This document shows positions 3,737 to 61,404 of a DNA stretch of 64,000 nucleotides, piece after piece. The first letter of the stretch is position 1. Every line of letters begins with the position of its first letter. The DNA lies in contig NC_063018.1 of the NCBI RefSeq assembly GCF_020509005.1, positions 2,170,001 through 2,234,000 on the forward strand, in the 5' to 3' direction. Source of the DNA: Fulvia fulva (taxonomy: Eukaryota > Ascomycota > Dothideomycetes > Mycosphaerellales > Mycosphaerellaceae). Under the pieces are notes generated by a model. It was not told the DNA's origin, searched no databases, and worked only from the letters and a program-made list of their open reading frames with translations. Made by a program: the position numbers and the translations under genes.

Positions 3737-3815
3737 CGTGTCACGCCGTTTTTTAGGTAGATTATATTATGTCATCTATATAGGTAAGGACTATAAGGTC
3801 TCTATCCGTATAGAT

Positions 3816-7109: not shown

Positions 7110-8188
7110 GGCAAGGAAGGAATCGTATTTAGCAAGCTAGCTACGAGATAAGGTGACAAGTCTTAACCGCGCTTTCCCACTTATCTAGCACCACCGTGTA
7201 GCCTCGTTTCGAGAGGTTAGCCCGGAGCAAAAGCTTCCCTCTACGCCCTCCCTCCCTGTTTGCTCCTTAAGCTAATATCCACCTCTATAGGCCTAAGCCC
7301 TTTAGTGCTCTCTATTGACCGACATGCGCATCCGTCCTCTCGGGCTATATAGACAGTGTCAGCCGTCGCTACTAGTGTACACTACGCCCTAGGTTTTGAC
7401 GCCCTTCGCGTTACCGTAGCCTATCTCTAGAAAGCGGCCGTCCATGCCTCGCAGGTTTGCTCGGGGCACACACTACGCCGGGCAGCGTACTCCTTGCGTT
7501 TCTACCTACTAACTAATATGAAGTTCCTTATTACCCTGCCCTCGATCCTCCCCGATCACAGAACTAATCCACTTGCATTATACGTCTTTTCCCCGTCCTA
7601 ATAGCCGTCTTTTCCTTGCTTAGGCTATCGTCTTTTCCTCGTCGCAATCTACTATGTCAGACTAGGTGCGTTGTGTAGCGGGACAGGCAGTGCCTTAGGC
7701 AAAACCCTCGTTCCTATACCGGGTGTTTAACAGGCCCTTATAGGCTTCGTCGCGTGTCCACCTACCCACCGCATTGCCCGCTAGCAAACACTAGATTGTT
7801 TCGTAGTCCGCTCGACGCCGTTGCATAGTCCGCTCAGTTGTTGTTCTGTAGTCCGCTCGTCTAATGTTCGTCGCTTAGCCCGCTCGGTTTGCGGTCTCCG
7901 GAGGTGAAAATTCTGCACTTATACTAGAGGTGTCCTGTCGAGCGTATAGGCTACGGCTCCGCGCCCTTCTTACACGTAGAAAGAAGAGGGACTCGCTCCC
8001 GACACGAGTACACGCTCGTCGGATAGTTTTCATACCCGTTTTGCTAGTAGTCCTCTGTTCGCCGCGGCTTCGCCTACGTTGCGCGCCCGTCGCGCCTACG
8101 ACGCTCTAGCGTGAGAATACTTGGCTCTCTCGTAGCTAGACGAGAGGTTCGTAGCCGACACCACGTATAGGTGATTCTCGTCGTCGAC
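7110..8188 (-). repeat. 1,079-bp 5' module, copy 1 (WEIRD-like part of a composite LINE)
   Basis: This segment is the reverse complement of 32818-33896. The two copies have the same length, the same 5' terminus (GTCGACGACGAG, minus strand here from 8188) and the same 3' terminus (TTCCTTCCTTGCC). Differences are mostly CpA/TpA. No long ORF or protein homology is visible. It contains a 7-bp stem hairpin at 8127-8146, three GGAAAAGACG-like repeats (near 7585-7640) and four or five AGCGGRCTA-like repeats (near 7775-7895). Its position at the 5' end of two different LINE families resembles WEIRD in the MINE elements of Magnaporthe; sequence relationship to WEIRD is untested. Confidence 0.85.
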
Positions 8189-8428
8189 CTATAAAGTATA
8201 TATAGTGATCTTAAAAGAAAGATAATAAATCTGAAATTTTTAGATTCCTATATCTTCGCCTTATAGAGAGATTCCTCGTAAATCCTAGCCTCCTACTAAG
8301 GTCGCCTCCCAACTATATATATCTTAGTAGTACCCCTATATACCCCTACTACGTAATTAACCGTTAAAGGTTAACGAGATTCGACGCGCAAATTTCAGGG
8401 TCTAAAGGAGGCCCTTAGCTCGTTGATA
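8189..8428 (-). repeat. Gypsy-1 left LTR (3' LTR in coding sense), possibly truncated
   Basis: The segment matches 15391-15520 joined to 20663-20765, including the motifs GATAATAAATCTGAAATTT and ACGCGCAAATTTCAGGG. The match supplies the empty-site sequence showing that LINE-C sits inside the other LTR. The outer boundary is uncertain because the LINE-B composite adjoins it at 8188. Confidence 0.7.
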
Positions 8429-8429
8429 T

Positions 8430-11400
8430 ATCCTCCCCTATTACGAAACTGTCCCTAGTTTTACCTCCGCTACGCTAATATAAACCAAGAAACTATACCT
8501 ATAAGTTATACGTAAGGAAGGCGGATCCGGCGTCTAGTTAAGTAGTTAGTCTAGAGATACTAAGGAGATTGTAAGTTTATTCTATAAGGGGCTAAGGAGG
8601 CCAAGTCAAAGTCTAGTCTTTATAGTAAGCCTACTCTCAAATTAAGGATATAGCCTAGAAATTACTTAAGTACGCTAGAAACTAGGTAGCCTAAAAAAAG
8701 AAATAATGAAGTCCTATCCCTCCTTTAACCTAAATCCTAGTAAATTTGGCCATCTCCTCCGTAGTAAGGTTATAAGGCCGTACCTATAGTCTCGTCGGCT
8801 TAGACTCTAGTTCCGGAAGTATAGTAGCTCTATTAATACCTATTAGAAGTATATTGTTATCCTCTTCGTCGTTCGGACGTAGTAGGTCTATTCTTATTTA
8901 GAAGATCGCCTTTTTCGACATTCGCGACATCAACCCTATCCTCTAGCGCTATAATGTCTTTAGCTTTAGGAAGATTAAGCTCCGGGTCCGTTCTTAACTA
9001 TAGGATTAGCTTTAGGTTCTCTCGGGCTTATATACCCTTTAACCTCGTACTATTAAGCTCTTTAAGGACGTATATACTAAACCCTAAGTACACCTTAGCT
9101 ATATAACACGGCCTAAGCTAGCGGTAACTAATCTTTTTAGATAGGTCATCCTTATACGGCTTGTCGAACTTGACTACAAGATCTCCGACCTCGAACCCCT
9201 AGAAGTTAATACTACGTTTAGTATCAAAGTATTCCTTACTTAGGGTATAAAGCCTTACTCTTCGTAATTATAACTCCTAAAGACTTATATCCCGTACCTA
9301 TAACTAACGCGCCTAAATAGCTAATAGCTCCTCCGTTGATCTAATAGAACCCTATTTATAGTTCGCCTATATCGGGTATTCCACCTCGATCGGGAGAATA
9401 TATAGGACCTCCGCCGGAGTTATACCCGTAATTCTAGATACCGTAGTTCTATTAGCCTAAAGTACCGTAGTAATCTATTGTTACTAGGACTTATAGGTGT
9501 TCTTAGTAAGCTTAGCTAATATAGCTAGAACAGGTCGATATCCTACTTCTATAGTTATATTTAACTACGGATAGTAGGGTAAGATCCGGATGTACTTAAT
9601 GCCTATACTAATAAGCATCCTCTCTACCTCCCCTTCGTTAATACTAGCGTTATTAAGCATAATCTTATAGTAGTATCTATACCGGCTAAACACTATCTTG
9701 TATAGGAACTTAGTAATCGCCCGCGAATTTAGAGGCTTCCGTACGACCTTCGCCTTAATCTACCTACTTAGAGCTTCTCGGGCGATAAGTAAGTACCCGT
9801 TTCTATATACGTAGACGGGATCGTAGTACTACCTCTCTCCTACAACCTACTAAGTCGATAAGTACATTTCTCCTACTCTCTAGTTACCTTCGCGAAAGTT
9901 ATAAGGAGTATAAGTCCTTACCTAATTCGATACGTCGGAGAAGTAGCCCTCCTAGTAATACCGGCTAGTAATAAGATTATATACTAGCTCTATACTCCGG
10001 TAACTATACTTTTTATAATAGTATATTACGATCTCTTTCTAAGTATTATTATCGTCTACTACTAGCTATATCGGTATACCTCTTCGCCGCTAATAAAACA
10101 AGAGCTTGTCTCTTAAGTAGTACCGAGGACTATTCTTAACGAGGTTTCGATTCTTAGCCCGGGTGAACCCTTCTGGTCGTATTCGATATACTAGAATATA
10201 AGCTATAAGCTCGGAATTGTTACTATACTAGGGTTCGAGGAGTCGTTTACGCTCTAGAATAACGGGGAAAGTATTAACTAGCTCGGCGTAACGGAAGAAT
10301 TTGTCGTTAATTATCTTATTAATATTATCGTTAGGTTCCGTAAGCTCCTTAGCTATAAGTAGTTTATAAGATAGTACATCCGGTCCGGAGTACTTCTTCC
10401 TATCGACATACCTTACTTTAAAGGTAAATAGCCGGATCTAAGTAACCTACCTTACTATTATAGAGTTTAGAATATCGGATACTAGCCGATTTAACTACTA
10501 TACTAGTGTTTTAGTATTAACTTTAAAGATAAAGTCTACTCCTACGAGGTAGCGCTACACCTTCTTAAGGCCCTTTAGTACTCCGAGGCACTCCCGCTTC
10601 CCTATACCGTACTTAGCCTCGTTTACGTTCTAGGTGCCGCTCTTATACCTTACTAGGTGTCTTCGTCGAGTATTATCTAGTAATTCCTACGATATTATAT
10701 AACCCTACCTAATACTACTCGCGTTAATAGAAACGAAGATCCTACTAGCTCCTAGGGCGTAGGAGATAGTTACTAACGCTAGTACTATTACTAAGAATCT
10801 TACTAGGTTCTCTTTCGAGAACTACTTATTCTTAGTCTAGACAAACTCGACGTCCTTCCTTAAAAGCTTATATATTAGCCGAGCGACAATTACAAACTAG
10901 GGGACCTAAATCCGGAAGTAAATATAGATCCTAATATAAACCCGAACGTCCTTTACGTACTTTAGGGTTAGCTAGTTTAAGATCTTAGCTACTATCTTAG
11001 GATCTAGATAGCGGCCGCTCGGGCTAGTAATATAGCCTACGATCTTTAGGGTCTTATAAAGCCACTACGACTTCTCCCCTACGACTACCGCTCCGGCCCT
11101 CTCTAGGTCCGTAAGAATAAGATTAAGGGACATAATATATTCTACGACCTATTGTCGAAGGCTAGGCTCTACCTTAGCGTTACTATAGTCCTTAGTAGGA
11201 CCTTTTACGCCGATATCGTTAAGAATTAGTTTTGCTCGGTAAGAAATATAGTCTATTAACACCTTAGTTACTACCCGTACGAACTGAGTAACTGAGTTCG
11301 TCGTACCCTATAGTAACGTTATATACCGTATAAGCCTAAGAGGCATTATAAAGGCCGTTAAGTCTCGGCTACTTTCGTTAAGCGTGATCTAGTCGTACCC

Positions 11401-14400
11401 CGAAAATAAGTCTACTAAAGAGGCTACTCTATACCTAGTAAAGTCTTCTAAGAACCCGTCCGTATCTAGGGGAATATTCGTATCCCTTATCGTTACCTCG
11501 TTTAAGAGTATAGCGGAGTTAATCAACCTATATAGTATAGCTTTGCTATTTAGCTCGACCTTCTTCGCTACTTAGAACTAAGCATTTATATAAGTACCTT
11601 AACTATACTTAAGAATTCTGTTCTAAATTCGAGCGCGGATTATCTATTCTATAATCGCTCGTAAGCTTAGGTATAACCGAATGTTCCGCGCCTACTACGG
11701 TTTATACATAATCGTTATGATCTTCTAAGGAGGCATAACATTATATCTAATCTACCGTATATAGCTAAGATCCTACGCTAGGACACCTTCTCGGTTAAAA
11801 AGCATTTTATTAAACATTTGTCTTTCCTTAGCCGAGAGAGCGATACTAACCTTAATACTAGCGAGCCTTTTAGGTATAATCCTCGAGCCGCGCTCGATAC
11901 TAGAGAACTTTTTAATAAGATACCTCCTATCGAACGGGCCTTACCCTACTAGTATTAGAGATTCCTAGTAAAGGGCCTTCCGCTTCTAATCTATAGGCTT
12001 GGGTTTTAGCTTTGTTATGCCTTCTTATCGATGTCGATACGCCGTGTTATTAGAACACTCCGCCCCTAATATATTTACTAAGGTCTCCCCGACTAGACTC
12101 GAAAAGCGGACTTGTTTTAAAACCGGACTTCTAATGCTTATAGCGGGTTAACTACCGTAAATCAACCCGCGTTTGCATTTTTCGAGGACTATAGAAGTTC
12201 TTAAAGAGTTTTGCACTTGTTAGTACCTATAATAGCCGTGAATATTATACTTCTACCTTTCCTACTAGCGATTATTCTCTCCTACAATCTATCGTCGTAG
12301 TTACGGCCTATTAGTCGTACCTTCCTATACTAAGGGCGGCTAAGGATCGTAGGCGAATCTAGATTAGCGGAGACAAACATATCGATCTAGTAGTATATAC
12401 TAAATACCTAAGTATTAAGCTTTGAAATTACCCCCTTAAACTTCGCTCTTCTACCCGCTCCTCGAAAGGACAAGTAGGCGCTAGGTACGATAGGTAAGCT
12501 AAACTTATATACTATCCTCGGGCTAATAATATTAACTTTAGATCCCTCGTTAAGTAGGGCTCGAGTCTAACCTTTACTAGTCCTAAGCTCGGTAACTACC
12601 TAGAGGCTAGGTACTGTTACAAAATCGTCTAGTATACTAGAGAGACCGGTCTTTTTAATGTTCTCGTATAACTCGGCGGTAGGGACAGCATCCTTACTAT
12701 ATAATATTATTAAGAACATACCTATAAAGCGAGCTTAATAATTATCCCGAAAGACTTCTTTATTAGCCTCTTCTCCCTTATCTTTATAGGTAGCGACATA
12801 ACTCGTACGGACTTTAGTCCCTTCTTAGCTAGCTAACTTACGGACGGTAGTAAGCTTAGACTATAGATTAGGGGTATTTACTACTCTCCTAAACAAGGTA
12901 GTCTTAAACTAGCGACTATACCGAAACTAGTCCCGGGTATTAACGTTTAGAAACGTAGTCTAAAGAATTTGATTAATCTAATAGGTCACCCCCTCCTCCT
13001 TAGTAACGGGCCTATCTCCTATACCGTACTATCGGACGTAGTTATTAATCCTTATCGTCTTTATATTCTATAGCCGTTTACGCTATACAAATAGGGTATT
13101 AATAGGCCCTACCGGCTATTCCGAGGGCGTAGGCCTTGACTTAGCTCGAGGCTTAGGTGCCCTTCTTCTAAGAGTCTCCCCTAACGCTACCGTTAACTAG
13201 CTTCTACTAGCCCTAGAACCGGCGTCTCTAATTATCTCTACCTCCTACTAACCGAGTTCTTCCTACCGGATCTCCTCTTCGAGTTCTTATCGTATAGCTT
13301 TAGCGGCCTCGGCTCGTACCCTTAATGCCTATATACTAGACCTAGTTCGAGGATTCGGGTTCTTTATAATTCCTACTAGAGCTTTGCCTCGAGATTTATT
13401 ACTCTAGATTAGGTAGGCCTTAACCTTAACCTCGTCGTAGTTTATAATCCTACTCCCTTATAGAACCGGTTCTTCTTCCTTAAACTAGATCTAGTAACTA
13501 CTAGCGGCCGTCGGTTACTACCTAGATCTAACATCTTAAGGGCCGTATTCTATAAGGTATCGGTTATTAGGTAGAGGTTTAGAGTAGTTAGGAAGCTTTA
13601 CGCTTAAGACCCTAGTATAATCTCGACCTATCTATTGTTTCCAAAGTGTAGGAATTTTTATGTCCTTATTAAATAGAATCGGGCTATAGTGTTCCTTAAG
13701 CTACGGAAGTATATAAAGGAGCTTAGGTTTACTATAGTCCCGTCGGAAGTTAAACTTAGGGGGATTTAGATTGGTCTTCTTTCCTAGGTACTACTAGTTA
13801 TTCGTCGCTAAAAAGACATACCCTTATAAGATAAGGAATAGTATCGCGGGGCACCTATTAGCCTAATGTTCCGTACTACTATAGTTATAATAGTACCTAT
13901 TAAGCGCTTTAGACTACTCGCGGTTCTATAACTACGGGCGCTATATTAAGCAAACCTATAGTTTAGGCACGCGATTAGGGTTCTCTAGTTATATAGACTA
14001 TTGATTTTCACTAGGGTTAAAGGATCTAACCTCCGCCGCGCGACCTCGTTAGTAAGCCCGAATACTTATTTCTACTATTTTCTAAATAAGGTTATCGTCG
14101 ATAGTAGCGGAAACAGCTAGTTTGTTAAGTATATTAATCTTAGGGATTAAGCGCGGCATCTACTTTATAACTGACCGATAAAGCTACGGTAAAGTAAGTA
14201 GAAAGTCCGTATATACGGCCTTCTATCCTTCTTTACTATTAGCGATACTTGTCGCCTCGTCTAGTATCTTTTAAAAGCGCCGAAACTTCTTAGGCTACTT
14301 TGGATAGAGCCTACATTTCTTATAAACTGCCTTAGTAACTGACTCTAGGAGCCCCTAAAGTAGAAGACGGCTACGGGAGCTATTATCGAGGTCTTCGGGA

Positions 14401-15390: not shown

Positions 15391-15520
15391 ATGTATACTA
15401 AGATCCTAAAAGATAATAAATCTGAAATTTTTAGATTCCCGTATTTTACCTTATAGAGAGATTTCTCGTAAAAAATCCTCCTCCTACTAAGGTCGCCTCC
15501 TAACTATATATATCTTAGTA
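15391..15520 (-). repeat. Gypsy-1 right LTR, first part
   Basis: This matches about 8200-8335. It is cut at 15520 by LINE-C. The last 13 bases (15508-15520, ATATATCTTAGTA) are repeated at 20650-20662 on the far side of LINE-C and form its target-site duplication. Confidence 0.78.
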
Positions 15521-15899
15521 AAGACCTAGAACTACATTTCCCTTCTATCGACGAGGACTATTTATTCGACAGCCCTTATTAAGACGAGCAATCTACTTAA
15601 CTAGTAGCGACCCGCCTACGCTAGCGGCGGCGTAATCGTAGTATAAAGAACCCTAAAACTAAGGTTCCGTTCCCGTAAAGGCAGACCCTAGAGTTACGGA
15701 GTTACGGAGGACAACTGCCTAATTAGGAAGCGCGACCCTAAATAGTAGCGAAGGATAGTAACTAACGAGAGCTATAGCCTAAAGATTATTCTATACTAAG
15801 AGTTAAACCCGGGAACAAACTAAGGAAAACCCTAGGATATAAGCTAAGGGCTACTATATAGAAAGTAGAGGCTAACGATAAATAATATAGCGTAGACGA

Positions 15900-17103
15900 C
15901 CCTATATACGGAGGCGGAAAACTTACTAGGGGATAACGAACACCTAGCCCGGACATATAAGAACACTATAGTATAGCTACTAGGAGCGCTAAAAGCGCTA
16001 TTATATAAAATCCCGAAGACAATCTAATAAGTAATACAGAAGGTAGCCTAGAGACTAACTATATAGGTAATAGTAGTAGTAGGTAAGAATTAACCCCTCT
16101 AAAGGCAAGTAAGGCGGTACGCCTATACATTACTAATCCGGCGGAGAAACAAGAAATCGTAGCCCTAATAAGCAAGGAGATTGTTAATAGAATCGGCTAA
16201 AAGGAGGTAGTTAGAGCGAGGGTAGAGGTAATAGGCGTAGTGAGACTCTTTACCGTATAAGAGTCTAATAGACGAAAGCTAGAGACCTATAAGGAGTAGA
16301 CTACTAAAGTCGCGAAGTCGGTACGAGTCTCCTACTAATAGTATACCGTTATCGCCTACGGGGTCCCTAGGACATTTAAGGTCGAAGACCTTCCCTACCT
16401 CTAAGTATAGAACTAGAACACCTCCCTAGGAGTACGACTAACGAAGGCGGCATAGCTATATAAGATATTAGACCGAGAAAAGACGTATTTATTGCTTATT
16501 ATCTAGGTAGAGACAGCGGAACAAGCTAACTAGATACTAGATAATAGGCTATTCTAGAACTACGAGAGAATAGACATAGAGATCTATTAGAGTAGCTATA
16601 GGGTACTACAATACTTCTAATACTAACAGTACGGTTATATAGCCCTAAAATATAGGAAGAAGACCCTAAGGTGTCCCTACTACGTAGGCCTATACTAGGG
16701 AAGGGAATGCCTAAAAAAGGAGAGTAGGTGTATATACTACGGTAGAAGGCACCTAGCGTATTTAAGCTAATACCTAGCTAGAATAGTAGTATAAGAACGA
16801 GCGAGATAAGCAAGGATCTCTATACTAGCTAGGTACCCCTAACGACAGTAGGAGGCACCTACCGTATATAAAGGCTTCGAGCCGAGTAAAAGGAAGAGGG
16901 TAGAAGAGACGAATAAGGGAACCTAACCGTAAACGTATCTACCTCCCGGTAGGCCTCGACACCTTAACCGGGCCGCTAATAAACTAGGCTAAATACGAAT
17001 CTTTAGGGCGCCCTAGCGGCCCTAGGGCTAGCCGGATAGCGAGATATAGGCTTAGGAGACATAGTAGGTTAGTACGGAAATAGACCTTACGGATAACAAA
17101 TAA
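15900..17103 (+). pseudogene. LINE-C1 ORF1 relic (zinc-knuckle protein)
   Basis: The frame around 16240 reads VRLFTV-ESNRRKLETYKE, matching FTAQEQDRKRLETQKEW of LINE-A1 ORF1, so here the N-terminal half is present. Knuckle remnants follow at about 16612-16780, where Cys codons TGC/TGT have become TAC/TAT (Tyr) through TpG to TpA change: LQYF-Y-QYGYIALKY corresponds to an ancestral CFKCxQYGHIALKC. Many TAG codons interrupt it. The frame ends at TAA 17101-17103. The N-terminal start is not resolved. Confidence 0.75.
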
Positions 17104-20100
17104 TACTATACGACGACATTACTATTGTATAGTATAACGTAAACAAAAGTAGGGAAAAGGTCTAGCGCTACTTTCTATAAGAGCTAGACCCGCTACGGCA
17201 CTACGTTATTACGGTATAGGAACTATAGATCAATCTCTACGTAGGACTCCTAGCTACTTATAATGACCGGAGATACTATACCGTAATCGCGGGCTAACGA
17301 GGCGTCATCCCGAGGATATATATATACGTAAGTAAGACTATAGACCTTAAGTCGTAGAAGGTTATACTACCGTAGTAGGGTAACCTAGGAGACATAATAT
17401 CAATCTAGATCGACACGATATAAGGCTCTATCTAGATCTATAACGTCTATAACCCGCTACCGCGGGGTCGGACGAGTAGGGAACTAGGAACCCTCGCCTA
17501 CCTAGAGCGGACCCTAAGCTAAGACATAAAGTAAGTACTCCTCGGCGACTTTAACCTCTACTACCTATAGTAGGGACTCGAATTCACTCCCCCGTACGCG
17601 TTTCTAGGGGGAAAGCTACTAGATATAACCGTACGCTACGGAATGGCCTTAGTAATACTAAAGGGAATAGAGACGTAGAAGGCCCGTATAAGTATAAGTA
17701 CGATCGACCTATACTTTCTATTACGAGAACTTAAAGAGAGACTAGTCTAATACCGATCGAACTACGCGCTAGAAGCCTCCTTAGACTATATCCCTATTTA
17801 AACGACGCTAGGGGTAAAGGCGATAGAGGAGCTAGTAAGTAAACCACGCCGTAACTAGAAGAAGGTACGCTAAGACAATATAAGAGGCTTCCTAATAGCA
17901 AATCTACTATAGTATAGAGAACTCGAGACGACAGCTTAGCTAGATCAAGTAGCGGAACAGATTACCTCGGTTATATAGTAAGTGGCGGAACAATATACGC
18001 TATTTCTCCGGCCCTTAACGTAGTAGAAGGCCTTCTAGACCCCTAAATACTCTACGAAGGTAAAGGAGGCTAGAAGGGCAAGGCGATAGTAGACAAAGGA
18101 GTATACCTAATAGACGTAGGAGCAATACTGTCGCGCGACATAAGAGAAGAAGGTATAGATAAGACGCGATAAGCTATAGGACTAGAGAGCGACGATCGGG
18201 CTCGTTATAGAAAACCCGGAACAGATGTAGAGACTTATTAAATAGGCACGACTACCTAAAGAGTAACAAACTCCTTACTTCCCCCTAATCGTAGACCGCG
18301 AAGGGATTGCCTAGACTACGCCCGGGGCAAGGCAAAAGTATTAGCCGACTATTTCTTTTCGACGTAAGTAGAGGTAGACTTTACGGATATCGCCTCGAGT
18401 ATATACCCGGAACCCCTAGATATAGATTAGGCGGTTAGCTCTAATATAGTAATATAAGTTATAAGTAAGCTAAAAGGACGAAAAGCACTAGGCCTAGATA
18501 GGATACTAAACATACTACTAAAAGAGTATAGAGAAGAGATCGCGCCGAGCCTTATAAACCTATTTACCGCGTACCTACGGCTAGGGTATTACCCGAAGCC
18601 GTATAGAGAGTCTATAACAGTAGTGCTACGTAAGCTATAGAAGGAGGACTATACTTAGCCCAAGTCGTATAGATCAATCGTACTTCTAAATACGATAGGG
18701 AAAGTCCTAGAAAAGATAGTAGCCTAGAGACTTACGTAGCTAGCCGAGGACAACTACGTACTCCTAGTAACATAGATAGGGGGAAGAAGCTAGTGATCGA
18801 CACTAATAGTAATAGAGCTAATTACGGAGCAAATTCAGACCCTCTAGTACTACGGTAGGAACCGAGCGGCGTCCTTACTATCCCTCGACATCGTAGGAGC
18901 CTTCGATAACGTCTTATACTAAAGGCTAATACATATCCTATAGTAGAAAGGCATCTCCTAGTAGGTAACGAAGTTCGTCTACTCCTTTCTCTAGGAACGG
19001 ACGACATACCTAGTCCTAGGAAGGTATACGTCCGACCCGGTAAAGTTAGAGGCTAGAATACCTTAGGGATCTAGTCTCTCCCCTATCCTATTTCTAATAT
19101 TTATATCTAATCTAATCCCCCTACTTACCTCTCCGTAAACCTTAGTATTAGGATTCGTAGACGACATAAATATTCTAGCCTAGTCAGACTCGATAGAAGA
19201 GAACTGTCGCCTCCTTAAAGATAGGTACAAGAAATATAAGGAGTAGGCAAAGAAGTATAGTGCCCGGTTCGCCTCTAAAAAGTACTAACTTATATACTTT
19301 AGTAAGGCGAGAACATACTATAATATAAAGGCGGTAGTAAGAATCTAAGGCTACGAGACTAAGCTATTAGCGGAGCTACGAATACTAGGGATCTAGCTCG
19401 ACCCGAAGCTAAGCTAGAATATATAGATTAAGAAAGCCTAGAGTCGAGCGCAAGTTAACGAAGCCTCGATAAAGAGGCTTACGGCATCTATATAGGGAGT
19501 AACATTTGATAAGGCAAGAGTAATATATAAGGCGATCGTTAGACTAGCTATATTATACGGGGCATAGATTTAGGGAATAGGAGGCGTAGGTAAGCCGATC
19601 CCGAAACGGATAGAGTAACCCCTAAATAGGATATAGATAGGCAACCTACGTAGGATACTAGGCGTATATAAGACAACGTTAATAAGTACGGTAGAAATAG
19701 AGATAGAAACACTACTAATCGGCTAGTACATCCAGGGAATAAGAATTTAATATGCGGTAAAGACGATAGATTACCTAGTACAAACTACGATCTAGAAGGC
19801 AAAGAATAAGATAGAAAGCCACTACCGGAGAGGGGCCGGACATAGGACAAGCTAAAAAGAGGATGACCTTACTACCTTTACGGCCGTATAGATAAGTACC
19901 GAATAGCTAGTACGAAAAGAGGAGGAGCGTAGGACTCGCTAGGCCGGCGGGAGTAAGGCTAAGACCTAAAGCCTAGCGGAATAGATAGCGAGCTTCCTAT
20001 AGGAGTAGGACTAGAAAAGGAAGCCCCCTAAGACAATAGGCCCGATAGTACTCCGAGCCTTCTAGAGACATAATTACTAGCTATATAGGGACCTAATAAG

Positions 20101-20520
20101 GGCCGAAGCAAGTATAGCGATCCAAATCAGGTCCGAATATATTAGATTAAGGGCCTACCTATTTAGGAGACGCGTACTAGACATCTATAGCCTAGCCTAC
20201 TAGTATAGCTACCTATCGTAAAACCTAGAACATATACTACTACGATACCCGTAGTAGGCGAGAGGTAGGGGAAATTGGAGGCACTAAGCGGGAAGGAGAG
20301 ACTATAAGTCAACTATTAGGGACAAAGGTAACATTTGCCGAATCTCTCGGTAGATACTATAGTAGGAATACCTCTAGTAGTTTAGCCTCGCTAGCGAGAC
20401 GGAGGAGTAGATAGATAAGAGGCGGAAGCTAGGGGGGTTATAGATAGGGTAGTTATTAGGGCAGGCCTATAACACTAGCGTACCCCTAATAAGGGAAATT
20501 TAAGACTATAACTAGGGGGA
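17103..20520 (+). pseudogene. LINE-C1 ORF2 relic (endonuclease/reverse transcriptase)
   Basis: The frame starts at a former ATG now reading ATA (17103-17105), inside the pentamer TAATA that corresponds to TAATG of LINE-B. Translation gives the endonuclease (ITIVQYNVNKSREKV, AVQEPQINL, LLGDFNLYY, STIDLYF). It then gives RT with KALGLDRILN at about 18480, SLDIVGAFDNV at about 18880-18920, IPQGSSLSPILF-like sequence near 19060 and GFVDDINILA at about 19150-19180. A C-terminal cysteine-motif remnant lies near 20215. Stops are mainly TAG. The catalytic DD of the RT is still readable, but the frame is closed many times. Confidence 0.83.
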
Positions 20521-20662
20521 AAAGATAGGCGGGAAGGAGGAGGGGTTTTTACTAATACGGTTTTCCCTCTATATATACGAAAACAAGATAGTATAGCTAT
20601 ATAGGCCAAAGGGCACTATAACAGCTTAATAGAATATCTATCTATATAAATATATCTTAGTA

Positions 20663-20765
20663 GTGCCCCTATATACCCCTACTACGTAATTGACCGTTAA
20701 AGGTTAACGAGATTCGACGCGCAAATTTCAGGGTCTAAAGGGGGCTCTTAGCTCGTTAATATTAG
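20663..20765 (-). repeat. Gypsy-1 right LTR, second part
   Basis: This continues the LTR interrupted at 15520 and matches about 8336-8428 with few changes (for example AATTAACC versus AATTGACC, a TpG/TpA difference). It stops where Gypsy-2 integrase-like sequence starts. Confidence 0.75.
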
Positions 20766-22133: not shown

Positions 22134-24139
22134 CATTGCCTTGCTCAACACACTAGGCAAACTCCTGGAAAAGATCATAGCAGAAAGGCTGACAAACCTA
22201 TCTGAAGAACATAGAATCCTTCCTGAAGAACAGATAGGAGGCAGGAAACAAAGATCAACACTAACAGCTGTGGAACTTATCACAGAGCAGATCAAGACCC
22301 TGTGGCACTTTAGGAACAACAAAGTAGCCACACTCCTCTCACTGGACATATTAGGAGCCTTTGATAATGTCTCACACCAGAGGCTGATCCACATCCTGAA
22401 ACAGAAGGCTATCCCTAACTGGACAGTTCAGTTCATCCAGTCCTTCCTCAGAGGTAGAACCACAAGACTAAGACTGGGCAGATACAAATCTGACAGCATG
22501 CCTACAGAGACAGGAATCCCACAGGAATCAACAATGTCTCTAATCCTGTTTCTCCTCTTTATGGCAGACCTACTAGCAAAGCTAAACTCCAGAAACACAT
22601 CAGCCTCAGGGTTTGTGGATGACACAAACATCCTAGCCTAGTCAGACAGCACAGAAGAGAACTGTAGAATCTTGCAGAAGAAACATAAGGAATGTGAGGA
22701 ATGGGCCAGGAAACATAGAGCCAGATTTGCCCCAGAGAAGTATCAACTCATCCACTTCAGTAGAGCCAGAAACAGACACAATATGCAAGCCCTAATCACC
22801 ATTCAGGGACACACAACAGAACCCTCAAGTGAATTAAGGGTGCTAGGAATATGGCTGGATCCAAAGCTCAGCTGGGGACCACAGGTCAAGAAAGCACAGG
22901 CAAGAGCAGACAACAACAGGCAATCAATTGACAGGCTTATAGCCTCCACATAGGGAGCCACATTTGCGAAAGCAAAGGTTATGTACAAGGCCATTGTGAA
23001 GCCAGCCATGCTATATAGAGCCCAGATCTGGTCAGCCTAAGACAAGATCCCAAAGAGAATTGCAGATCCCATCAGTAGAGCCCAAGCCTCCTGTCTGAAA
23101 AAGGTGCTTGGAGCATACAAGTCAACTCTAACAAGGGTGGTGGAAATGGAGTCTGGCTCCCCACCAGCCAAGCTCTACCTTCAAGGGTTGAGATACCAGT
23201 ATGCAGGAAAGACGTCTGCATACCCAGCCCAGCTAGTAATCCAGAAGGCAGTCAACAAAATCCGGAGCCAGTGCACAAGAAGGCACAGACAAGCAAGACC
23301 CAATCCAGCCCCACAGAAGCAGCAGGACCTGCAGAAGTTCAAAGAACTAACAGAACAGCTACACCTAGCCTAGCAGGAACAGGACAGAAGGGCTCAAGGG
23401 AGAGGATCAGCAGCCAGCCAAGGGAAGAAGCAACAGTCTCTAGCTGAAAGGATGGCAGGACTCCTCTAGAAGACTGAATGGACAAGAACCCCACAGAGGC
23501 CAGGAACCCTAAAGGCACTCCAACAGTTTGGTAGCCACAACTACCTACTGTACTCAGACCTGACCAGGTCAGAAGCAAGCATAGCAATACAAATCCGCTC
23601 TCAACACATCGGAGTCAGGGCATACCTGCATCAGAGAAAAGTCCTAGGTATCGAAGACAAGAGTTGCCCATGCGGCTACCTGTCCCAGAATGTCGAACAA
23701 AGACTTCTGGTTTGCAAAGAATAGAGTACAGGGAGAGGTGAATGGAGGGCAAGGGCAAGGAACAGAAACTTCCAAGCCATGATCAGCAATAAGGGAGACC
23801 TCCAGAGAATTACAAGGTGGATCATCCACTAAGGATTTTTGGAGCAGTTCTCTCTTACTAGGGAAACAGAGAGATGGATTGAGGAGAGAAAGAAGGAGGA
23901 GGAGAGCAGGAAGAGGGGGACAACTCCAGGGTTGCAGACAAGGTAGTTTCAGGCTAACCACTATGACACTAGTGCACCCTAATGGAAGGAAAACTGAGAA
24001 CTCATGGCAAGGAAGCTATTAGAGAAGGAGAGGAGGTTTTTACCTAGGAATAGGTTTCCTACCTTATGCAGTAACATATATAGACATAAACCCGCATAGG
24101 CCGGAGGGCACCACAATAGGTAAATGAATCATCTATCTA
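22134..24139 (+). mobile_element. LINE-A2: 5'-truncated, lightly RIPed copy of LINE-A
   Basis: The insert is flanked by a 16-bp TSD (TCTATATTATCGTCTA at 22118-22133 and 24140-24155) and ends in ATCT repeats. It starts inside ORF2 at the point matching about 900 of LINE-A1 (reverse complement) and continues to the 3' end, so it supplies the part of LINE-A that is off-window. Nearly all differences from LINE-A1 in the overlap are CpA to TpA or TpG to TpA, for example the FVDDTNILAW tryptophan TGG is now TAG. It sits in the RNase H region of Gypsy-2 and is much less mutated than its host. Confidence 0.93.
22136..23990 (+). pseudogene. LINE-A2 ORF2 3' fragment
   Basis: The fragment is in frame from LLNTLGKLLEKIIAERL through the RT palm (LSLDILGAFDNV; GFVDDTNILA at 22609-22638) to the C-terminal CPCG motif near 23666, which ends ...LLVCK at about 23716. 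A handful of TAG codons break the frame (for example 22639 and several after 23030). Gly to Leu and Gly to Glu type changes follow from G-to-A transitions. The endonuclease and ORF1 were never present because of 5' truncation. Confidence 0.88.
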
Positions 24140-25999
24140 TCTATATTATCGTCTAAGTTAACGGTAAGCTTAGGTCTCTATTCTTCGAAGGCGAGGACGA
24201 TCGCTAATAGTTCCTTATTGTAAATCTTGTAGTTATACTCCTATACTAACATCTTCTTAGATATATATACTACCGGTCTCTAGACGTCTCCGTGTTTCTA
24301 TAAAATTACTACCGTAGTAACGAAATCTAAGGCATCTATTTCGACTATAGTTTCTAACCCTAGTACAAAGTATACGAGTATCGTGTCCGTTAAGAATATA
24401 TCTTTTAATCCTTAGAAGGCTACTTTGTATTCTATTGTCTAAACGAATAGTATCGGCTTACTATTCTTACTAGTCTTTATTAAATTCGTAAGGGGTATAT
24501 AGATTTTGGAGAAGTTCTATATAAACCTTCGATAGAAGTTTCCGAACCTAAGGAATACTTATACATCCTTTAGGCATATTAGAGTAAGCTAGTTCTTGAC
24601 TATGTCGACCTTTTCTAGGTCTATACGGATACCGTCGACTCCTATAATAACACTAAGGTACTTCGTCTCTATTTAGTAGAACTTGTATTTGTCGATGTCT
24701 AACTATAGGCCGGCTTTACGTATACGTTATAGCACTTTACGTACGTATTATATATATTCCTCGAATATCTCGCTAAAGATCAGGGTATTATCTAGGTACA
24801 CTAAATAGAAGTCATCGAGATACTCCCTAAGCGTATCGTTACTATATAATTAGAATGTTCCTAGAGTATTATATAGGCCGAAAGGCATTACTATATACTC
24901 GAATTGACTATAGCAAGTACTAAACGTAGTTTTCTATTCGTAGCCCTCTATAATACGAATACGGTTAAAGGTAGAGATAATATCGAGTTTAGTAAAGTAC
25001 TTCTTCCTATTTAGGCGGTTTAGCGTTTCTTAGAATAGCGGTATTAGGTATCTACTTTTGACCGTAAGGGCGTTAAGAGCTCTATAGTCGATATAGACCC
25101 GTAGACCGCCGCCTAGTTTATGTATAATTAGTACTAGTATAGAAGCCGGGCTCGTACTTCGTTATATCGCTCTAGATTCTAGCTAATCGTCGACCTACTT
25201 CTTAATTACCTTATTCTTGCGAGACGACATTACGTATAGCCGCTTAAAAGGAGGTGACTTAGTTTCGTCTTTAAGGTGTATTTTATAGTCTTTACTAGGG
25301 CGGTAAGGTAGGATCTTCGATATATCCTAACGGTTAAAATAGTCCTCGAAATCGTATAGTTCCTAGAGTAAGTAGACATTAGTATCTTAGTCCTTATCTT
25401 TGCCTTTTATAAATCTATCGAAGTCGCTATTTACTATTATTATACATACTGTCAAGGGGTTTACTAACTATACCTTTTAAAGGTTTATAGCGTAGAGCCT
25501 AGTAGGATCGAAGTCTTGCCTAGTCGCTACTATTACGTAGGCTCGTAATAGATTAGCGTAGTGCTTCTAAGTAGGTCGTATAATCTATATTATATAGACT
25601 TTTGCTCCTTTCTTACGAGCTAGTTTTACTACGTAGGCCGCGGAGATGTTTACGATATTGATCTCTAGTTCTAGTTCGACAACTCGTTACTTTTATTTCG
25701 TATATTAGTACGGTCGCTTTAACGTCTTAACGCCGTCTACCGGTAACGGTTGTCGAGTATACGTACGGAAGTTATCCTCTTCGTCCTCGAACATCGTATA
25801 GAACTATAGTTAGGGTATATACTTAGGTAACGATAGCGTAGGAGCGGTGTCTTTGTCGGGGTTATCTTCTACTATCGGCGGTCGATAATTGCCTAATAGT
25901 ACTAGCGTAGCTAGATAGTTAATAGACTATACTATTAGGTGTTTATTAGACCTCTAGTTTGCCTTATAGGTACGGCATTTCAAATGATTTATTATTATA

Positions 26000-27380: not shown

Positions 27381-27434
27381 AGCTCGTAAAAGAGGATAGA
27401 AGTACTAGTATATATATATTATAATATAGCTATA

Positions 27435-28584
27435 ACGTACTTTACTACCGAGCGGGCTATACTACCGAGCGGGCTATACTACCGAGCGGGCTACTTTTAC
27501 TAACTACTATACTACTTCTACTTTAATTACGACGGTATCTTAACACGACGACATCCTATAGAATCGTTACTAGGAGGACAATTGCTCTTTAGATTCTTCG
27601 CTATCTAGTAAGTCTACTTAATAGGTACGTACGTTGTGCCACGACTCGCTATATTACTTATAGCGTCGTAGCCTTAGTACTAGCCGAACACTATCTAGCG
27701 ACTCTCTACTTACTTCCTACCTCCTAGTATCCTCTAGAGGTATTAATTACGACGCCTTATCGAAGGTTAGAGACCCTCTAGACTAAATGTACTTGCGCTT
27801 TCGTACTATCCGCTATATAAGGGCCTCGTTAGACTTGCGTAGCTTACTAATCTCGCTTCGTATAAGAGCTATCTAATACGCTATCTCTCTACTCCCTCTC
27901 TATTGCCCTATTAAACGACCTTCCTCTTTCTACTACGCCTTTCTAAACCCGTAACGACGCTCTAAGACGTAATAACACCTATTATAAACCCTATCTTGTC
28001 GAAGTTATAGGTGTCCTAGTTAAGGATACTATACTTCTCCTTTATATTACGTATAAGTAAGAACTACTTCTCGGTAACGTCTAGATCTTCTATTAGGGCT
28101 CGCTAACGATCGTATCTACGTGTTATACGAACCTTTAGCTCACGATACCGCCTAATAAACCTGTCTATCTAATTGAGACTAGCGGGCTTAAGACCCTTCT
28201 CTTATAGTAATAAATCGGCTATTACTTGTATACTAGCGTTTAATAGCGGGAAACCTCTAAGATCTAGCTCGAGTATATACTCAAGTATTACCCTCTCTTC
28301 TAGCTCTATAAGCTTCTTCGAATTGGGCTTATAGTCACCCCGAGGAGGTCGTCTATTCACTCGATACCCTAGTATAGTTTGAGACGCGTCGTATACCTTT
28401 ATAGTAAGTCGATTCGTAATTATCGCGTCGCGTTTCGTAGCCTAGACAGCTAAGGTCAGTTTGGCCTCGTTTAAAGACAATATACGCTATAATAGTAGTT
28501 ATATAGCTATATCTATAGAAGTGGTATAGTTCTTAGTAAAAGTAGCCCGCTCGGTAGTATAGCCTACTCGGTAGTAAAGTACGT
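27435..28584 (-). mobile_element. Fot1/pogo-like DNA transposon, internally deleted, copy A
   Basis: The 1,150-bp element is flanked by TA (27433-27434 and 28585-28586) with terminal inverted repeats beginning ACGTACTTTACTACCGAGCG. The subterminal unit ACTACCGAGCGGGCTAT is present three times at the left end and twice (degenerate) at the right. The interior is the reverse complement of copy B (45893-47008). It lies between Gypsy-2 and Gypsy-3 gag regions. The transposase relic reads on the minus strand and is RIPed. Confidence 0.87.
27560..28490 (-). pseudogene. Fot1-like transposase relic, copy A
   Basis: Minus-strand translation matches copy B: an N-terminal helix-turn-helix block (about 28430-28300: AIITNRLTIKVYDASQTIL), a CENP-B-like DNA-binding part (WTDRFIRRYRELK-like, about 28170-28110) and the first DDE block (NFDKIGFIIGVI-like, about 28010-27950). 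The rest of the DDE domain is missing as in copy B, so both derive from a deletion derivative. Stops are numerous. Confidence 0.72.
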
Positions 28585-28599
28585 TATCGTATATAGTAT

Positions 28600-29960
28600 A
28601 AGGTAGCGGAGAACAAGCTAGTAGAGACCGAGACTAAGCTCGTAGTAGCCGAGAAGCGTATTACTAAGCTTAACAAGTAAGAGATAGACCGTAGCCGGTC
28701 TAAGGAAAAGTAAGACCTACTACCTAAGCGAACCGAGTCTAAAGAGTCACTATAGCGTCGACAAAATAGAGGCAAACCTAATAAGAAGAAGTCGGACCCG
28801 GATTTATCGGACTTATTAGACGACGAGGACGACGGTAATAAGGGCCGTAAGAATAGTCGTAAGGGTAGGAAGAATCGCCTAAGTACCGACTTAGATAGTA
28901 ACCCTATCTCCGTATATACGACTTACGACGCTAATATAACTACTAGTATCAAGTCCTCTAACGAGCTAAAGGCCCCTACTAAGTTCGACCTAAAGAGCGA
29001 CGACATTAAGTTCTAAGAGTAGTAGAGTACTACCAAAGCTAAGCTCTAAGCCTCGAAGTACCGTACTATAAAGGACTCCCTTTAGAACGTCTAGAGCTAG
29101 TTAAAGAACGGTATATAGACCTATATCGACTTAAAGATCCCTAGTCTTACTAAGTCTACGGAAGGTACGACTACTTAGTACGCTTCTATAGATAAGATAA
29201 TAGAAGATCTAGCCCGGCGCTACGGTACCTATAATATCTATACTAATACTATAACTAAGCTTAATAGTCTATAGTAGGGTAATAAGGAGAAGTTTAGTAA
29301 CTTCTACCTATTCTTCCGTAAGAACGCCGATATCGTTAACCTTAATAACGGCGCGAAGGAAAAGAAACTCGAGAAGGACTTCCTACTCCGTAAGTTAAAC
29401 TCGCGCTACGATAACCGTATTATAAACGAGGATATAGTCAATATAACCCTTAAGCAAGTCGTGTCTATACTATAACTACGAGGATAAGTTTAAGGCGTTC
29501 GACCTTAAGTACGGTAAGACCGGTAATAGTAATAAGACCTAAGGTAATAAGAAGACTACTAAGGGTAACGACGATAAGAAGGATACGGCTTCGGGTAGTA
29601 GCGGTAACAATACTTACCTAAACGCTAAGACTAAGTAGGCTAATCGACCTTAGGCATTTTAGTATATCTTACCTTTAGATACTACTCGCGCCTAGGAATA
29701 TATCGATTAGAATCGGTACTTAAAATACGAATAAGAAGGTTACCGCCGTGTCGATACCAATTAGTACCCCCTTCGAGATGTCGCCCGCCGCCTATTTACG
29801 CTAGGCTATAACCTAAGTAATAACCGCCGTAACGGTAGTAATAGTAGTAACGCTAATAATACCGGCGGCGCGGGAAACGCCTAGTCTACTCCGTAAGCGT
29901 AATACGTAGTAGACCGTACGAGTTAGAGTTACGAGAAAACGAGAAAAAGTATGAATATAA
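28600..29960 (+). pseudogene. Gypsy-3 gag relic
   Basis: The frame reads AENKLVETETKLVVAEKRITKL (coiled-coil-like), a Lys/Arg/Asp-rich segment, then KAPTKFDLKSDDIKF near 28965-29015. Near 29280 it has a Gag-core pattern (LQQGNKEKFSNFYLFFRKNADIV-like), ending in a Gly/Asn/Ser-rich low-complexity tract (about 29480-29620 and 29810-29880). Stops come from TAG. It is followed without LTR sequence by the protease region. Confidence 0.7.
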
Positions 29961-29999
29961 ACATAGGCCTCCTAAGGGAGGTAAGGTTTTAAGTATATC

Positions 30000-32802
30000 G
30001 GCATACTCCCTACTAGCTATAAACTACTCTATAGATAAACACAATCCGGTAATAGCTTCTTATCTAGTTATACTATATATAGTGAATAGAAAGATCCCTA
30101 CTCAAACCCTTTATAATAATAGTACTAACTCTACGTACTTTGATATTAACTTTACGTATAAGAACAACCTTAATATAATATAGCTACCTAATCTATTAGG
30201 GCTAATATTAGTAGATAGCCGACCTACTAGTGACCTTATTACTTTTAGAATAACGGTATAGATTCAGATCGGTAACTACGTAGAGACTAGGTCTAGCTAC
30301 TACGTATTACTAGAATATAATATAGTCCTCGGCCGTCCCTAGTACGACGAGTATTAACCTACGTTCTACTATACGTTAGGAACTATAACCCTATTCTTAC
30401 TATATTGTCGATAGAACTATATACTCGGAACTGAACTAGTATACGTATAGTCTATTAACGACAAGGATATTATACTAATAGTCGTTCTTTAGACCGAGAT
30501 ACTAGTACTAGAGAGTTCGCGACCTTAAGCTCTATCTAATTACGCCAAATCCTACGTAGAGAATAAAGACGAACTTATAGTAGTATAGGAGACGTACACT
30601 ACGAAGGTAGTAATACGACATACCGTCGATACCTACGATAAACCGGAACCGTCTTACTACGTCCGCTAGCTACTACCCGCCGATAGGGTTAAAATACTTA
30701 AGCGCCTAGCGCGTCGAACGAAGAAAGAACTAAAGGTCGAGACTGAGCCGGAGATCGACATCAAGCCTATTAATATAGAAGTACTTCGGCGTATAAGCCG
30801 GAGGAAGGGCTATAAAGTATATATAATATAGATGTTTAACCCGAAAGAAAATTCTAATAAGTAAGTTGCGCGAGACCCGCTATCCGCGTATATACTAAAG
30901 GCTTTCGGTATAAGAGCGAAGCTAGTACTAGGAGGCAGCGCGGCGATGTTAGTAGATACTAATACTTAAGAAAACATAGACAGATAGGAGGAGCCCCGGG
31001 GTGACTATACCTAGCGGCAACTTAATACCTCTACTATATTAGCTAACGACTATTAACGTTTTATGAACGGTAGGGACAAAGACTAGGATCCTATCCCTTT
31101 GTTACTAGTAGAGTTTAGGGAAATGGCTAGGCTATTTAGCCGTAAGGAAGTAGATAAGGTCCTACCGCGACGGCCTAGCGTAGACTATAAGATTAAGCTA
31201 AAGAATAGTTAGACACCGCTATTTCGAAGACTATACTCCTTCTCTATACGAGAGAACGAGGTGATTAAGAAGTAGATCAACGACTAACTTAAGAAAGGTT
31301 TTATTTAGAGAAGCGTATTACTAGTAGTAGTACCTATTCTAATAGTCAAAAAGCCGGGTAGAGGGCTACGAGTATACGTAGACTATAGAGCTCTAAACGC
31401 GCTTACGACGAAGAGTTGCTACCCGATTCTACTATTTTAAGAGACCTTAGATCGTATTACTAGCGCGTAATAGTTTACTAAACTAGATGTTATTGCTACG
31501 TTTAATCGCATCCGTATTATAGTAGGAGACGAGTAGAAAACGGCCTTTACTACTAGATATAGGCAGTTTGAGTACGTAGTTATGCCTTTTAGACTATATA
31601 ATATACTAGGAACGTTTTAGTCATTTATAAACAATATACTAAGGGAGTTTGTAGATAACTTCGTGTTATATTACCTTAATAACGTACTTGTCTTTAGTAA
31701 GACAAGAGAAGAATATGTCTAATATATTCTAAAGGTTTTACGTAAGCTAGATACCGCCGGGCTCTACTTAGATATTAACAAATACGAGTTCTTTAGATAC
31801 GAGACCACTTATCTAGGTGTTATTATTACAAATAAGGGCATTAAGATAGACGTAGCTAAGATCAAATACGTTAAGAATTGGCCTATACCCGTAAATATTA
31901 CCGACATCTTGTCGTTTATAGGGTTTACTAACTTCTACCGTAGGTTTATTAAGAATTTTAGTAAGATCTACTTACCTATAACGAAGCTTACGAGGAAGAA
32001 TGTCCTATAGGACTAGTCTCTAGTATATTAATAGACGTTCGAGGCATTAAAGTAAGCATTTATTGATACGCCTACCTTGAAACACTTCTACCTAGGGCGA
32101 GAGACTATTCTAGAAACAGATACCTTAGATTACGTAATAGTAGTAGTACTCTTATTATATAACGAGCGAGGAGTATTACATCCTATTACTTATATATCTA
32201 AGAAGATAGATCCCTAGTAATACAACTACGACATCTACGATAAGGGGCTCCTAGCTATTATATAAGCTTTCGAGGAATAGCGACCGGAGCTAACTATTAA
32301 CAAATACGGTACCGACGATTATAAGAATCTACTAGACCCGGAATCTAAGGACAAGCCGACGCTTATATACTCCGATTATAAGAACCTCGAATAGTTTATA
32401 AGTACGAAGCAATTGAACCGTAGATAAGCTCGCTAGGCCGAGTTTCTCTCGTAGTTCTTCTTTAAGATCGTCTATAGGCTAGGAGTTTAAGGTACTAAGC
32501 TAGACAGCTTAACCCGACGTTTATAGGACTTGCCAAAGCCTAGAGACCTAGATGACCTACGAAACTAATAGTAGTATTAGGTATTACTAGGCCTAGATCG
32601 TATCCTAAACCTATTGTCTACTAGAGTATTATCGGTATATACTAATAACGTTATAACCCCGCTTACGACCGCTATTCGAGGACTCTATACGTAACTAGAG
32701 GCTAAGGAAACCGTTTGATAGCTAGAACGAGATGATCTATATACCTTACTAAGGAAGTACCGTATCGATAATCGTTATATAGTCCTAGTCGGAGGCACAA
32801 TA
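30000..32802 (+). pseudogene. Gypsy-3 pol relic, protease to RNase H
   Basis: RT blocks are readable: FTKLDVIATFNRIRI near 31475-31520, FEYVVMPFRLYNIPGTFQ near 31570-31620 and LYYLNNVLVFSKT at about 31660-31705. In the last block the catalytic DD reads NN. RNase H and tether sequence continue with FYRRFIKNFSKIYLP near 31930 and ARWAEFLSQF near 32430. The protease core lies near 30090-30240 with an LVDSRPTSD-like stretch. TAG codons interrupt the frame at intervals. The sequence stops at the composite LINE insertion. Confidence 0.8.
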
Positions 32803-32817
32803 TATATTAAGAATATA

Positions 32818-33896
32818 GTCGACGACGAGAATCACCTATACGTAGTGTCGGCTACAAACCTCTCGTCTAGCTACGAGAGAGCCAAGTATTCTCACGCTAG
32901 AGCGTCGTGGGCGCGACGGGCGCGTAACGTAGGCGAAGCCGCGGCGAATAGAGGACTACTAGCAAAACGGGTATAAAAACTATCCGACGAGCGTATACTC
33001 GTGTCGGGAGCGAGTCCCTCTTCTTTCTACGTGTAAGAAGGGCGCGGAACCGTGGCCTATACGCTCGATAGGACAGCTCTAGTATAAGTATAGAATTTTC
33101 ACCTCCGGAGACCGTAAACCGAGCGGGCTAAGCGACGAACATTAGACGAGCGGACTATAGAACAACAACTAAGCGGACTATACAACGGCGTCGAGCGGAC
33201 TACGAAACAATCTAGTGTTTGCTAGCGGGCAATGCGGTAGGTAGGTAGACACGCGACGAAGCCTATAAGGGCCTATTAAACACCCGGTATAGGAACGAGG
33301 GTTTTGCCTAAGGCACTACCTGTCCCGCTACATAACGCACCTAGTCTAATATAGTAGATTGCGACGAGGAAAAGACGATAGCCTGAGCAAGGAAAAGACG
33401 GCTGTTAGGACGGGGAAAAGACGTATAATATAAGTAGATTAGTTCTATAATCGTGGAGGATCGAGGGCAGGGTAATAAGGAACTTTATATTAGTTAGTAG
33501 GTAGAAACGCAAGGAGTACGCTGCCCGGCGTAGTGTGTGCCCCGAGCAAACCTACGAGGTATAGACGGCCGCTTTCTAGAGATAGGCTACGGTAACGCGA
33601 AGGGCGTCAAAACCTAGGGCGTAGTATATACTAGTAGCGACGGCTAACACTGTCTATATAGCCCGAGAGGACGGATGCGTATGTCGGTCAATAGAGAGCA
33701 CTAAAGGGCTTAGGCCTATAGAGGTAGATATTGGCTTAAGGAGCAAATAGGGAGGGAGGGCGTAGAGGGAAGCTTTTGCTCCGGGCTAACCTCTCGAAAC
33801 GAGGCTACACGGTAGTACTAGATAAGTAGGAAAGCGCGGTTAAGACTTGTTACCTTATCTCGTAGCTAGCTTGCTAAATACGATTCCTTCCTTACC
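32818..33896 (+). repeat. 1,079-bp 5' module, copy 2 (WEIRD-like)
   Basis: This copy runs from GTCGACGACGAG to TTCCTTCCTTACC. It carries a 7-bp stem, 6-nt loop hairpin at 32860-32879, a group of AGCGGRCTA-like repeats at 33119-33230 and three GGAAAAGACG-type repeats at 33367-33377, 33390-33400 and 33413-33423. No ORF of note is present. The CCGAGCGGGCTA unit (33118-33130) also occurs in the Fot1-like terminal repeats at 27450 and 45905. Differences from copy 1 are mostly CpA/TpA. Confidence 0.88.
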
Positions 33897-61400: not shown

Positions 61401-61404
61401 AGCC

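Follow-up and report, generated by a model that had tools for sequence, protein, structure and literature searches.

The window analysed here is a stretch of 64,000 nucleotides from Fulvia fulva (= Cladosporium fulvum), the tomato leaf-mould fungus (contig NC_063018.1, positions 2,170,001 to 2,234,000), and it contains two inverted copies of a sequence of about 1.1 kb, hereafter the module, each fused to a piece of a long interspersed nuclear element (LINE) of a different family. This arrangement, including the identical ends of the two copies, had been described in a first-pass annotation and was confirmed: positions 7110-8188 (minus strand) and 32818-33896 (plus strand) aligned over their whole length without gaps and shared 1031 of the 1079 bases (BLAST E = 0). 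The copies are equally long, as annotated, but the length of 1,079 nt needed correction, since the final CC (sense) belongs to the LINE and the module proper thus comprises 1,077 nt; the LINE III match inside the window begins at 33895. Read in sense, the module starts with GTCGACGACG and ends with ...CCTTCCTTG. No open reading frame (ORF) of at least 150 amino acids was listed inside either window copy. The two chimeras consist of the following features:

7112..8188, minus strand: module copy 1, 1,077 nt, with the start GTCGACGACG at 8188 and the end CCTTCCTTG at 7112
3820..7111, minus strand: LINE IV, 5'-truncated, joined to module copy 1; LINE II interrupts near 3820
32803..32817, no strand: 5' target-site duplication (TSD) TATATTAAGAATATA, 15 bp
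32818..33894, plus strand: module copy 2, 1,077 nt, heavily mutated by repeat-induced point mutation (RIP)
33895..35129, plus strand: LINE III 3' piece with a (TATC)n tail, 92.5% identical to 63654-64000 and 94-95% to the genomic loci L010 and L017
35130..35144, no strand: 3' TSD TATATTAAGAATATA, 15 bp

Copy 2 and its LINE piece lie, as had been annotated, inside one TSD pair. The LINE IV piece beside copy 1 is 92.8% identical to L011 over 3820-6205, and its joint agrees with the relative at L009 (agaaggC|CCTCG); since a LINE II copy interrupts this piece, the window includes neither its 3' end nor its TSD. The two LINE lineages had been called unrelated, and while they are indeed different families, they are about 65% alike in DNA and hence related; a distant partner was instead found at L102. 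Compared to the majority of 30 module copies, copy 1 has 21 differences (16 of them C>T/G>A) and copy 2 has 51 (48 of them C>T/G>A), and nearly all of these C>T/G>A changes are in CpA/TpG context, i.e. of RIP type.

LINE partners of the module across the genome

The F. fulva genome (67,169,167 bases in 14 contigs) was searched for the module; the C. fulvum Race 5 assembly has been described as 67.17 Mb in 14 chromosomes, with the LINE Tad1 making up 16.3% of the genome (PMC9453070). One host protein encoded in the window matches F. fulva srdC with 99% identity across 79% of its length. Allowing up to two mismatches, 25-mers from the module 3' and 5' ends gave 606 and 565 matches, respectively, and a control gave none, corresponding to about 1% of the genome if every copy is full length. 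A search with the whole module, in which the best 40 of 657 candidates were scored, returned 41 matches, 40 of which spanned query base 1-4 to 1079. A full-length, non-coding 5' part of about 1.1 kb with fixed ends, a feature of the MINE elements of Magnaporthe, is thus found here as well. A structured or ribozyme RNA was considered and rejected, based on the fold (z +1.6 relative to 60 shuffles) and on Rfam, where the heavily mutated copy 2 had no match up to E 5 and the window none at the gathering score.

The sequence following the module was read at 110 module 3' ends. Of these, 30 come from longer loci, namely the two window copies and 28 ends from the best matches to copy 1 (one of the 28 belongs to an inner module, and two to units of the same tandem array), and 80 are zero-mismatch 3'-end matches among the matches listed (C1-C4). 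A LINE followed directly in 108 cases (103 with an intact LINE relative, and L008, L018, L026, L068 and L128), and in the remaining two a second, 5'-shortened module was followed by a LINE. No solo module was encountered among the 110 ends read, out of about 606 existing copies. The LINE is always located 3' of the module, in the same orientation, and is 5'-truncated to variable length. For the 80 copies, taken in genome order among the matches listed, the partners were LINE I (34), LINE III (22), LINE II (14), LINE IV (7) and others (3). Families I-IV are mutually about 63-70% alike in DNA, and LINE II encodes an ORF1 with a zinc knuckle and an ORF2 with endonuclease and reverse transcriptase (RT). 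The partner at L068 is a fifth LINE, with an ORF2 protein 37-44% identical to that of LINE II, an (ATTT)n tail and a 14-bp TSD (L102). At L128, the module leads into an ORF1 start that is 53% identical to LINE II ORF1 over 66 residues, and at L127 the module 3' end is followed by another module. The module thus has at least five LINE families as partners. A single LINE family and position behind all copies, which would have spoken against repeated fusion, was not seen; there are 64 distinct breakpoints in four families plus the divergent fifth. As it is always this one end of the module that is joined in the copies read, and the LINEs concerned are of at least five kinds, the module likely spreads by being captured when LINEs copy themselves.

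Where both ends of an insertion were in hand, the whole chimera was enclosed by one TSD of 12-18 bp in 12 of 13 cases (11 outer insertions with a recognised 3' tail in the long set, ten of them with a TSD, plus L102 with 14 bp and L145 with 17 bp). At L010, a module, 710 nt of a second module and LINE III are all enclosed in a 15-bp TSD, and at L145 a module, module positions 296-1079 and LINE III lie within one 17-bp TSD; judged from this layout, each looks like the product of two successive joins. The TSDs around whole chimeras and these two double insertions agree with the annotated idea of repeated joining at one RNA 3' end.

Three units of module and LINE IV are arranged in tandem at L011 and L103 (C1:8826062, 8830729 and 8835400), at a spacing of about 4.67 kb. 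As the units contain genomic flank and the modules of the first two do not differ, a tandem DNA duplication is the probable origin of this array. In 29 loci, the target base preceding the module 5' end was G 26 times and A three times, and a CTATATA-like word was present at most 24 nt upstream of the module in 25 of 29 loci (no background computed).

LINEs without the module and the sequence at the joints

The constant position of the module on the 5' side of the LINE, in the same orientation, could suggest that it is the natural 5' untranslated region of these LINEs and that the joints are internal deletions. LINE II was matched at 173 5'-complete copies and 289 3' ends in the genome. For 20 of the 5'-complete copies the upstream region (roughly 370 bp) was inspected, and the module was found in none, the leaders being short and variable. 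As all 20 of these full-length copies are without it, the module is not the LINE II leader. The window insertions of LINE I and LINE III, each inside its own TSD, likewise have no module, leaving this interpretation with a negligible probability. Among the 5'-complete LINE II copies L069-L088, at least two kinds of leader precede GACACGATG, namely …CGGCGTGACACGATG and …AAGGTTCAGAGAGACACGATG. The LINEs without a module in the window are:

1..3765, minus strand: LINE II copy, extending off the window, with ORF1 at 2477-3736 (CCHC zinc knuckle) and ORF2 at 3-2483 (endonuclease, RT)
15521..20649, plus strand: LINE I insertion with a 13-bp TSD ATATATCTTAGTA at 15508 and 20650
22135..24141, plus strand: LINE II, 5'-truncated, with a 14-bp TSD TATATTATCGTCTA
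59908..64000, plus strand: LINE III insertion, extending past the window, with a 16-bp TSD CTATATTATTAATAGG at 59892 and, outside the window, at 64880 (L089)

Among the matches listed, 69 zero-mismatch LINE II 3' ends (C1-C3) were divided into 31 full-length copies, 13 with a module 3' end upstream and 25 with neither; a module 5' end lies close to one of these 25, which raises the module-associated copies to 14. Inspection of 11 of those 25 revealed five truncations without a module and six copies extending beyond the sequence read. The idea that all truncated LINE II copies carry the module was ruled out by these module-less truncations.

The joint itself was scored in 103 cases, corresponding to 64 distinct LINE breakpoints; outside this set are L008, L010 (outer module) and L127, as well as L018, L026, L068 and L128, for which there is no intact reference. 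The LINE base opposite the last G of the module (position -1) was C at 47 and T at 17 of the 64 breakpoints and never A or G, and the first joined base (+1) was C at 59 and T at 5. The neighbouring positions were less strict, with C 42, T 16, A 4 and G 2 at +2, and A 39, G 20, T 4 and C 1 at -2. The break hence falls between two pyrimidines (Y|Y) at all 64 breakpoints, and within a purine (R) followed by three pyrimidines (R-Y|Y-Y) at 53, compared to background frequencies of 20.2% and 5.0% along the LINE sequences (binomial 3e-45 and 3e-58, treating the breakpoints as independent though homologous ones are among them). At some joints, a T may be a C converted by RIP. Over all references of at least 88% identity, only C or T occurred at -1 in 101 of the 103 joints, L043 and L112 having discordant relatives. 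The last module base in the chimeras was G in 91 and A in 12, the A being the outcome expected from RIP there, and L026 is the sole exact 3' end with a purine after the G. Not one non-transition mismatch was present at +1 to +6 in the 103 joints, which gives no sign of added bases.

Two other explanations of the motif were discarded. Group I-like reverse splicing, which would share the terminal G and the pyrimidine before the cut, lacked an upstream pairing consensus beyond -2, and pure GCC microhomology is contradicted by G at -1 in 0 of 64 breakpoints.

Sixteen breakpoints recur, each in 2-7 copies, and 19 of the 103 joints are located 3-6 nt before one GACAT word in families I, II and III, which by translation we take to be the LDISGAFD-like RT motif A. 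The sharing of breakpoints is what would be expected if a few module-LINE chimeras had formed once and then moved as units. Such a composite element is nevertheless very unlikely, considering the 64 distinct breakpoints, the breakage of the same homologous site in three LINE families, and the divergence of modules with the same breakpoint, which are no closer to each other (27.3 per kb, 8 pairs) than modules within the same family (28.2) or from other families (28.1), although RIP noise lowers the power of this comparison. With the same low power, module divergence gave no support to the hot spots being re-transposed composites; occasional re-transposition of module-LINE chimeras may occur. 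Module lineages did not correspond to LINE families (permutation P 0.23, RIP noise limiting the test).

Probable origin of the proposed module RNA and the route to the chimeras

The modules and the LINEs joined to them differ in their RIP marks. In six LINE II chimeras, 94 of 696 CpA-type sites were changed in the module, compared to 48 of 2327 in the joined LINE II (Fisher 2e-29; the ancestral-state rules differ slightly between module and LINE parts), and the excess was significant in five of the six individual chimeras. In all 11 pairs compared without ancestral-state rules, divergence was higher in the module than in the LINE part overlapped (9.3-28.0 versus 3.4-13.3 per kb). The private module changes in the six chimeras numbered 11, 7, 6, 1, 1 and 0, showing that the RIP patterns are not nested, and the presence of both C>T and G>A speaks for RIP at the DNA level before capture. 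As modules in nearly unmutated LINE II chimeras were already changed by RIP, the templates of the module were probably several mutated genomic copies, i.e. existing chimeras, rather than one pristine gene.

These patterns bear on the possibility that the module is a stable cellular RNA encoded by one host locus, as proposed for WEIRD, the corresponding part of the MINE chimeras, with all copies being dead-end retropseudogenes. A discrete transcript would agree with the fixed ends and the full length, expression of WEIRD is known in Magnaporthe (PMC2104539), and about 496 of the 606 copies are outside the read set. Against it stand the lack of a solo copy among 110 and the RIP-type changes in the modules of nearly unmutated LINE II chimeras, which are unlike, non-nested and not what one pristine gene would produce. 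We consider a single source unlikely, a judgement that concerns the origin of the RNA, which is a separate question from the mechanism of joining.

Any route to the chimeras has to accommodate fixed module ends, many breakpoints, several LINE families, TSDs around whole chimeras, two double joins, a strict motif and no added bases; from these we infer a free module RNA and a jump onto it. With moderate confidence, we propose that LINE RTs join the module by template jumping. The RT would leave its own LINE RNA at an R-Y|Y-Y site and resume copying at the 3' end of a discrete module RNA, and the resulting module-LINE chimera would be inserted as one unit with the module on its 5' side. The module RNAs would be transcribed from several RIP-mutated genomic copies, and the module would thereby likely be a self-perpetuating element that depends on LINEs and is carried on the 5' side of their insertions, as suggested by the RIP-type mutations in modules of young chimeras that the joined LINE lacks. 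The RT of R2 has been reported to jump best with a cDNA overhang of 1-2 nt complementary to the 3' end of the acceptor (PMC8857657). Similarly, a module RNA ending in ...GCC would pair with cDNA ending in ...GG copied from CC, which fits the C at +1 (59/64) and, less strictly, at +2 (42/64).

Several observations weigh against template jumping from self-perpetuating copies. The jump leaves the absence of purines at -1 (0/64) unexplained, and the strict motif and lack of added bases suit RNA ligation at least as well. Of six LINE II truncations without a module, only L100 has a Y|Y break (Fisher 5e-7, small sample), so the motif is not a general RT stop site. The module breakpoint of L043 is 3 nt away from one of these truncations, L096, and 4 nt away from another, L100. 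No solo source was seen, with 110 of about 606 copies covered, and the module RNA is not more structured than its shuffles. The insertion at L011, in the tandem array, has a 3' tail and no TSD; a 22-bp repeat there is the flank of the next tandem unit and no TSD. The RIP excess was not significant at L013 (P 0.09), and unlike RIP patterns could likewise stem from different alleles of one source locus.

If RNA ligation came first, a nuclease would cut the LINE RNA at R-Y|Y-Y, its 3' fragment would be attached by ligation to the module RNA at the 3' end of the latter, and ordinary target-primed reverse transcription would copy the chimera. This route agrees with a strict four-base motif covering both sides of the break and with the lack of added bases, accounts better than the jump for the missing purines at -1, and is one of two routes proposed for U6/LINE-1 chimeras (PMC13174262). 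It does, however, predict module-less truncations at the same motif, which only one of six (a small sample) fits, and it would call for a nuclease and leaves the strong preference for one RNA without explanation. We regard ligation as rather unlikely compared to template jumping by LINE RTs.

Comparison with known systems and other elements in the window

Fulvia fulva is a Dothideomycete and Magnaporthe a Sordariomycete. The MINE elements of Magnaporthe grisea were described from 31 chimeras of WEIRD and the LINE MGL, with WEIRD also found joined to Mg-SINE, in one tripartite case and, in the conclusion of that paper, to the LINE Enigma (PMC2104539). Their breakpoint consensus is GCC*A/U, and no solo WEIRD was seen; the verdict in 2007 was that WEIRD is not a transposable element and possibly a housekeeping RNA, the gene for which was missing from an incomplete genome. 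The chimeras in F. fulva share with MINE the full-length non-coding 5' part of about 1.1 kb followed by a 5'-truncated LINE of variable length, the direct repeats of 10-20 bp (here 12-18 bp, in 12 of 13), the recurrent junctions and the double joins inside one TSD (PMC2104539). Solo copies numbered 0 among the 110 module ends read here, out of about 606. In contrast to MINE, the partners are at least five LINE families of this fungus instead of mainly MGL, the copies are roughly 20-fold more numerous (about 606 versus 31), the breakpoint is R-Y|Y-Y with G at -1 in 0 of 64 instead of GCC*A/U, and the RIP pattern of the module points to several templates (PMC2104539). The module thus works like MINE when compared by architecture rather than by sequence; as its partners and breakpoints differ from those of MINE, we do not claim membership.

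The U6/LINE-1 and other mammalian LINE-1 chimeras similarly have a cellular RNA 5' of a truncated LINE within a TSD, and template switching or RNA ligation has been proposed for them; here, on the other hand, one module dominates, several LINE families take part and the joint motif is strict (PMC13174262). The step proposed here is that of the end-to-end template jumping of R2-type elements, where 1-2 nt at the cDNA end pair with the 3' terminus of another RNA; the R2 reaction was demonstrated in vitro, whereas the module is known from natural joints alone, and a pairing of 1-2 nt leaves its purine-free -1 position unaccounted for (PMC8857657).

Like short interspersed nuclear elements (SINEs), the module is non-autonomous, LINE-dependent and present in high copy number. 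SINEs commonly have a LINE-like 3' end and an RNA polymerase III promoter, whereas the module resides on the 5' side, and in the one copy scanned with consensus words, no B-box match was found and three TTTT runs were present inside. We tentatively suggest, as a possibility somewhat short of even, that the module represents a novel type of mobile element, an RNA parasite that is non-autonomous, has no gene and would multiply solely by serving as a landing RNA for the RTs of different LINEs, and is in this sense a mirror image of a SINE. If this is true, chimeras would yield module RNA that is welded to the next LINE at R-Y|Y-Y, and the module would pass from family to family, gathering RIP mutations on the way.

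No report of module-LINE chimeras in C. fulvum was found in the open-access literature searched (subscription papers not covered), and the word "chimeric" is absent from the main text of three C. fulvum genome papers. With about 600 natural joints to five LINE families in a 14-chromosome assembly, a sharp rule for the joint sequence and copies that are young and little mutated, two questions become testable: template jump versus RNA ligation, and passive cellular RNA versus self-perpetuating LINE parasite.

The word GAGCGGRCTA occurs 14 times in the window compared to 0.46 expected. Seven occurrences lie in the two modules (7804-7885 and 33121-33202) and the other seven at the ends of an inverted-repeat element of about 1.1 kb (27450-28552 and 45908-46993), where it has the form TACCGAGCGGGCTA, with 1,283 genome matches. 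Judging by this word, the module and the inverted-repeat element may have a shared origin or a shared binding site.

The window further contains an inverted pair of 5.6-kb elements (35516-41130 and 51216-56830), 97.5% identical and with terminal direct repeats of about 240 bp; a Ty1/Copia element linked to the loss of Avr9 has the same dimensions (PMC10823647). Finally, positions 8218-8429 resemble the flanks of the LINE I insertion (15409-15520 and 20647-20762) put together, and would represent an empty-site relative.

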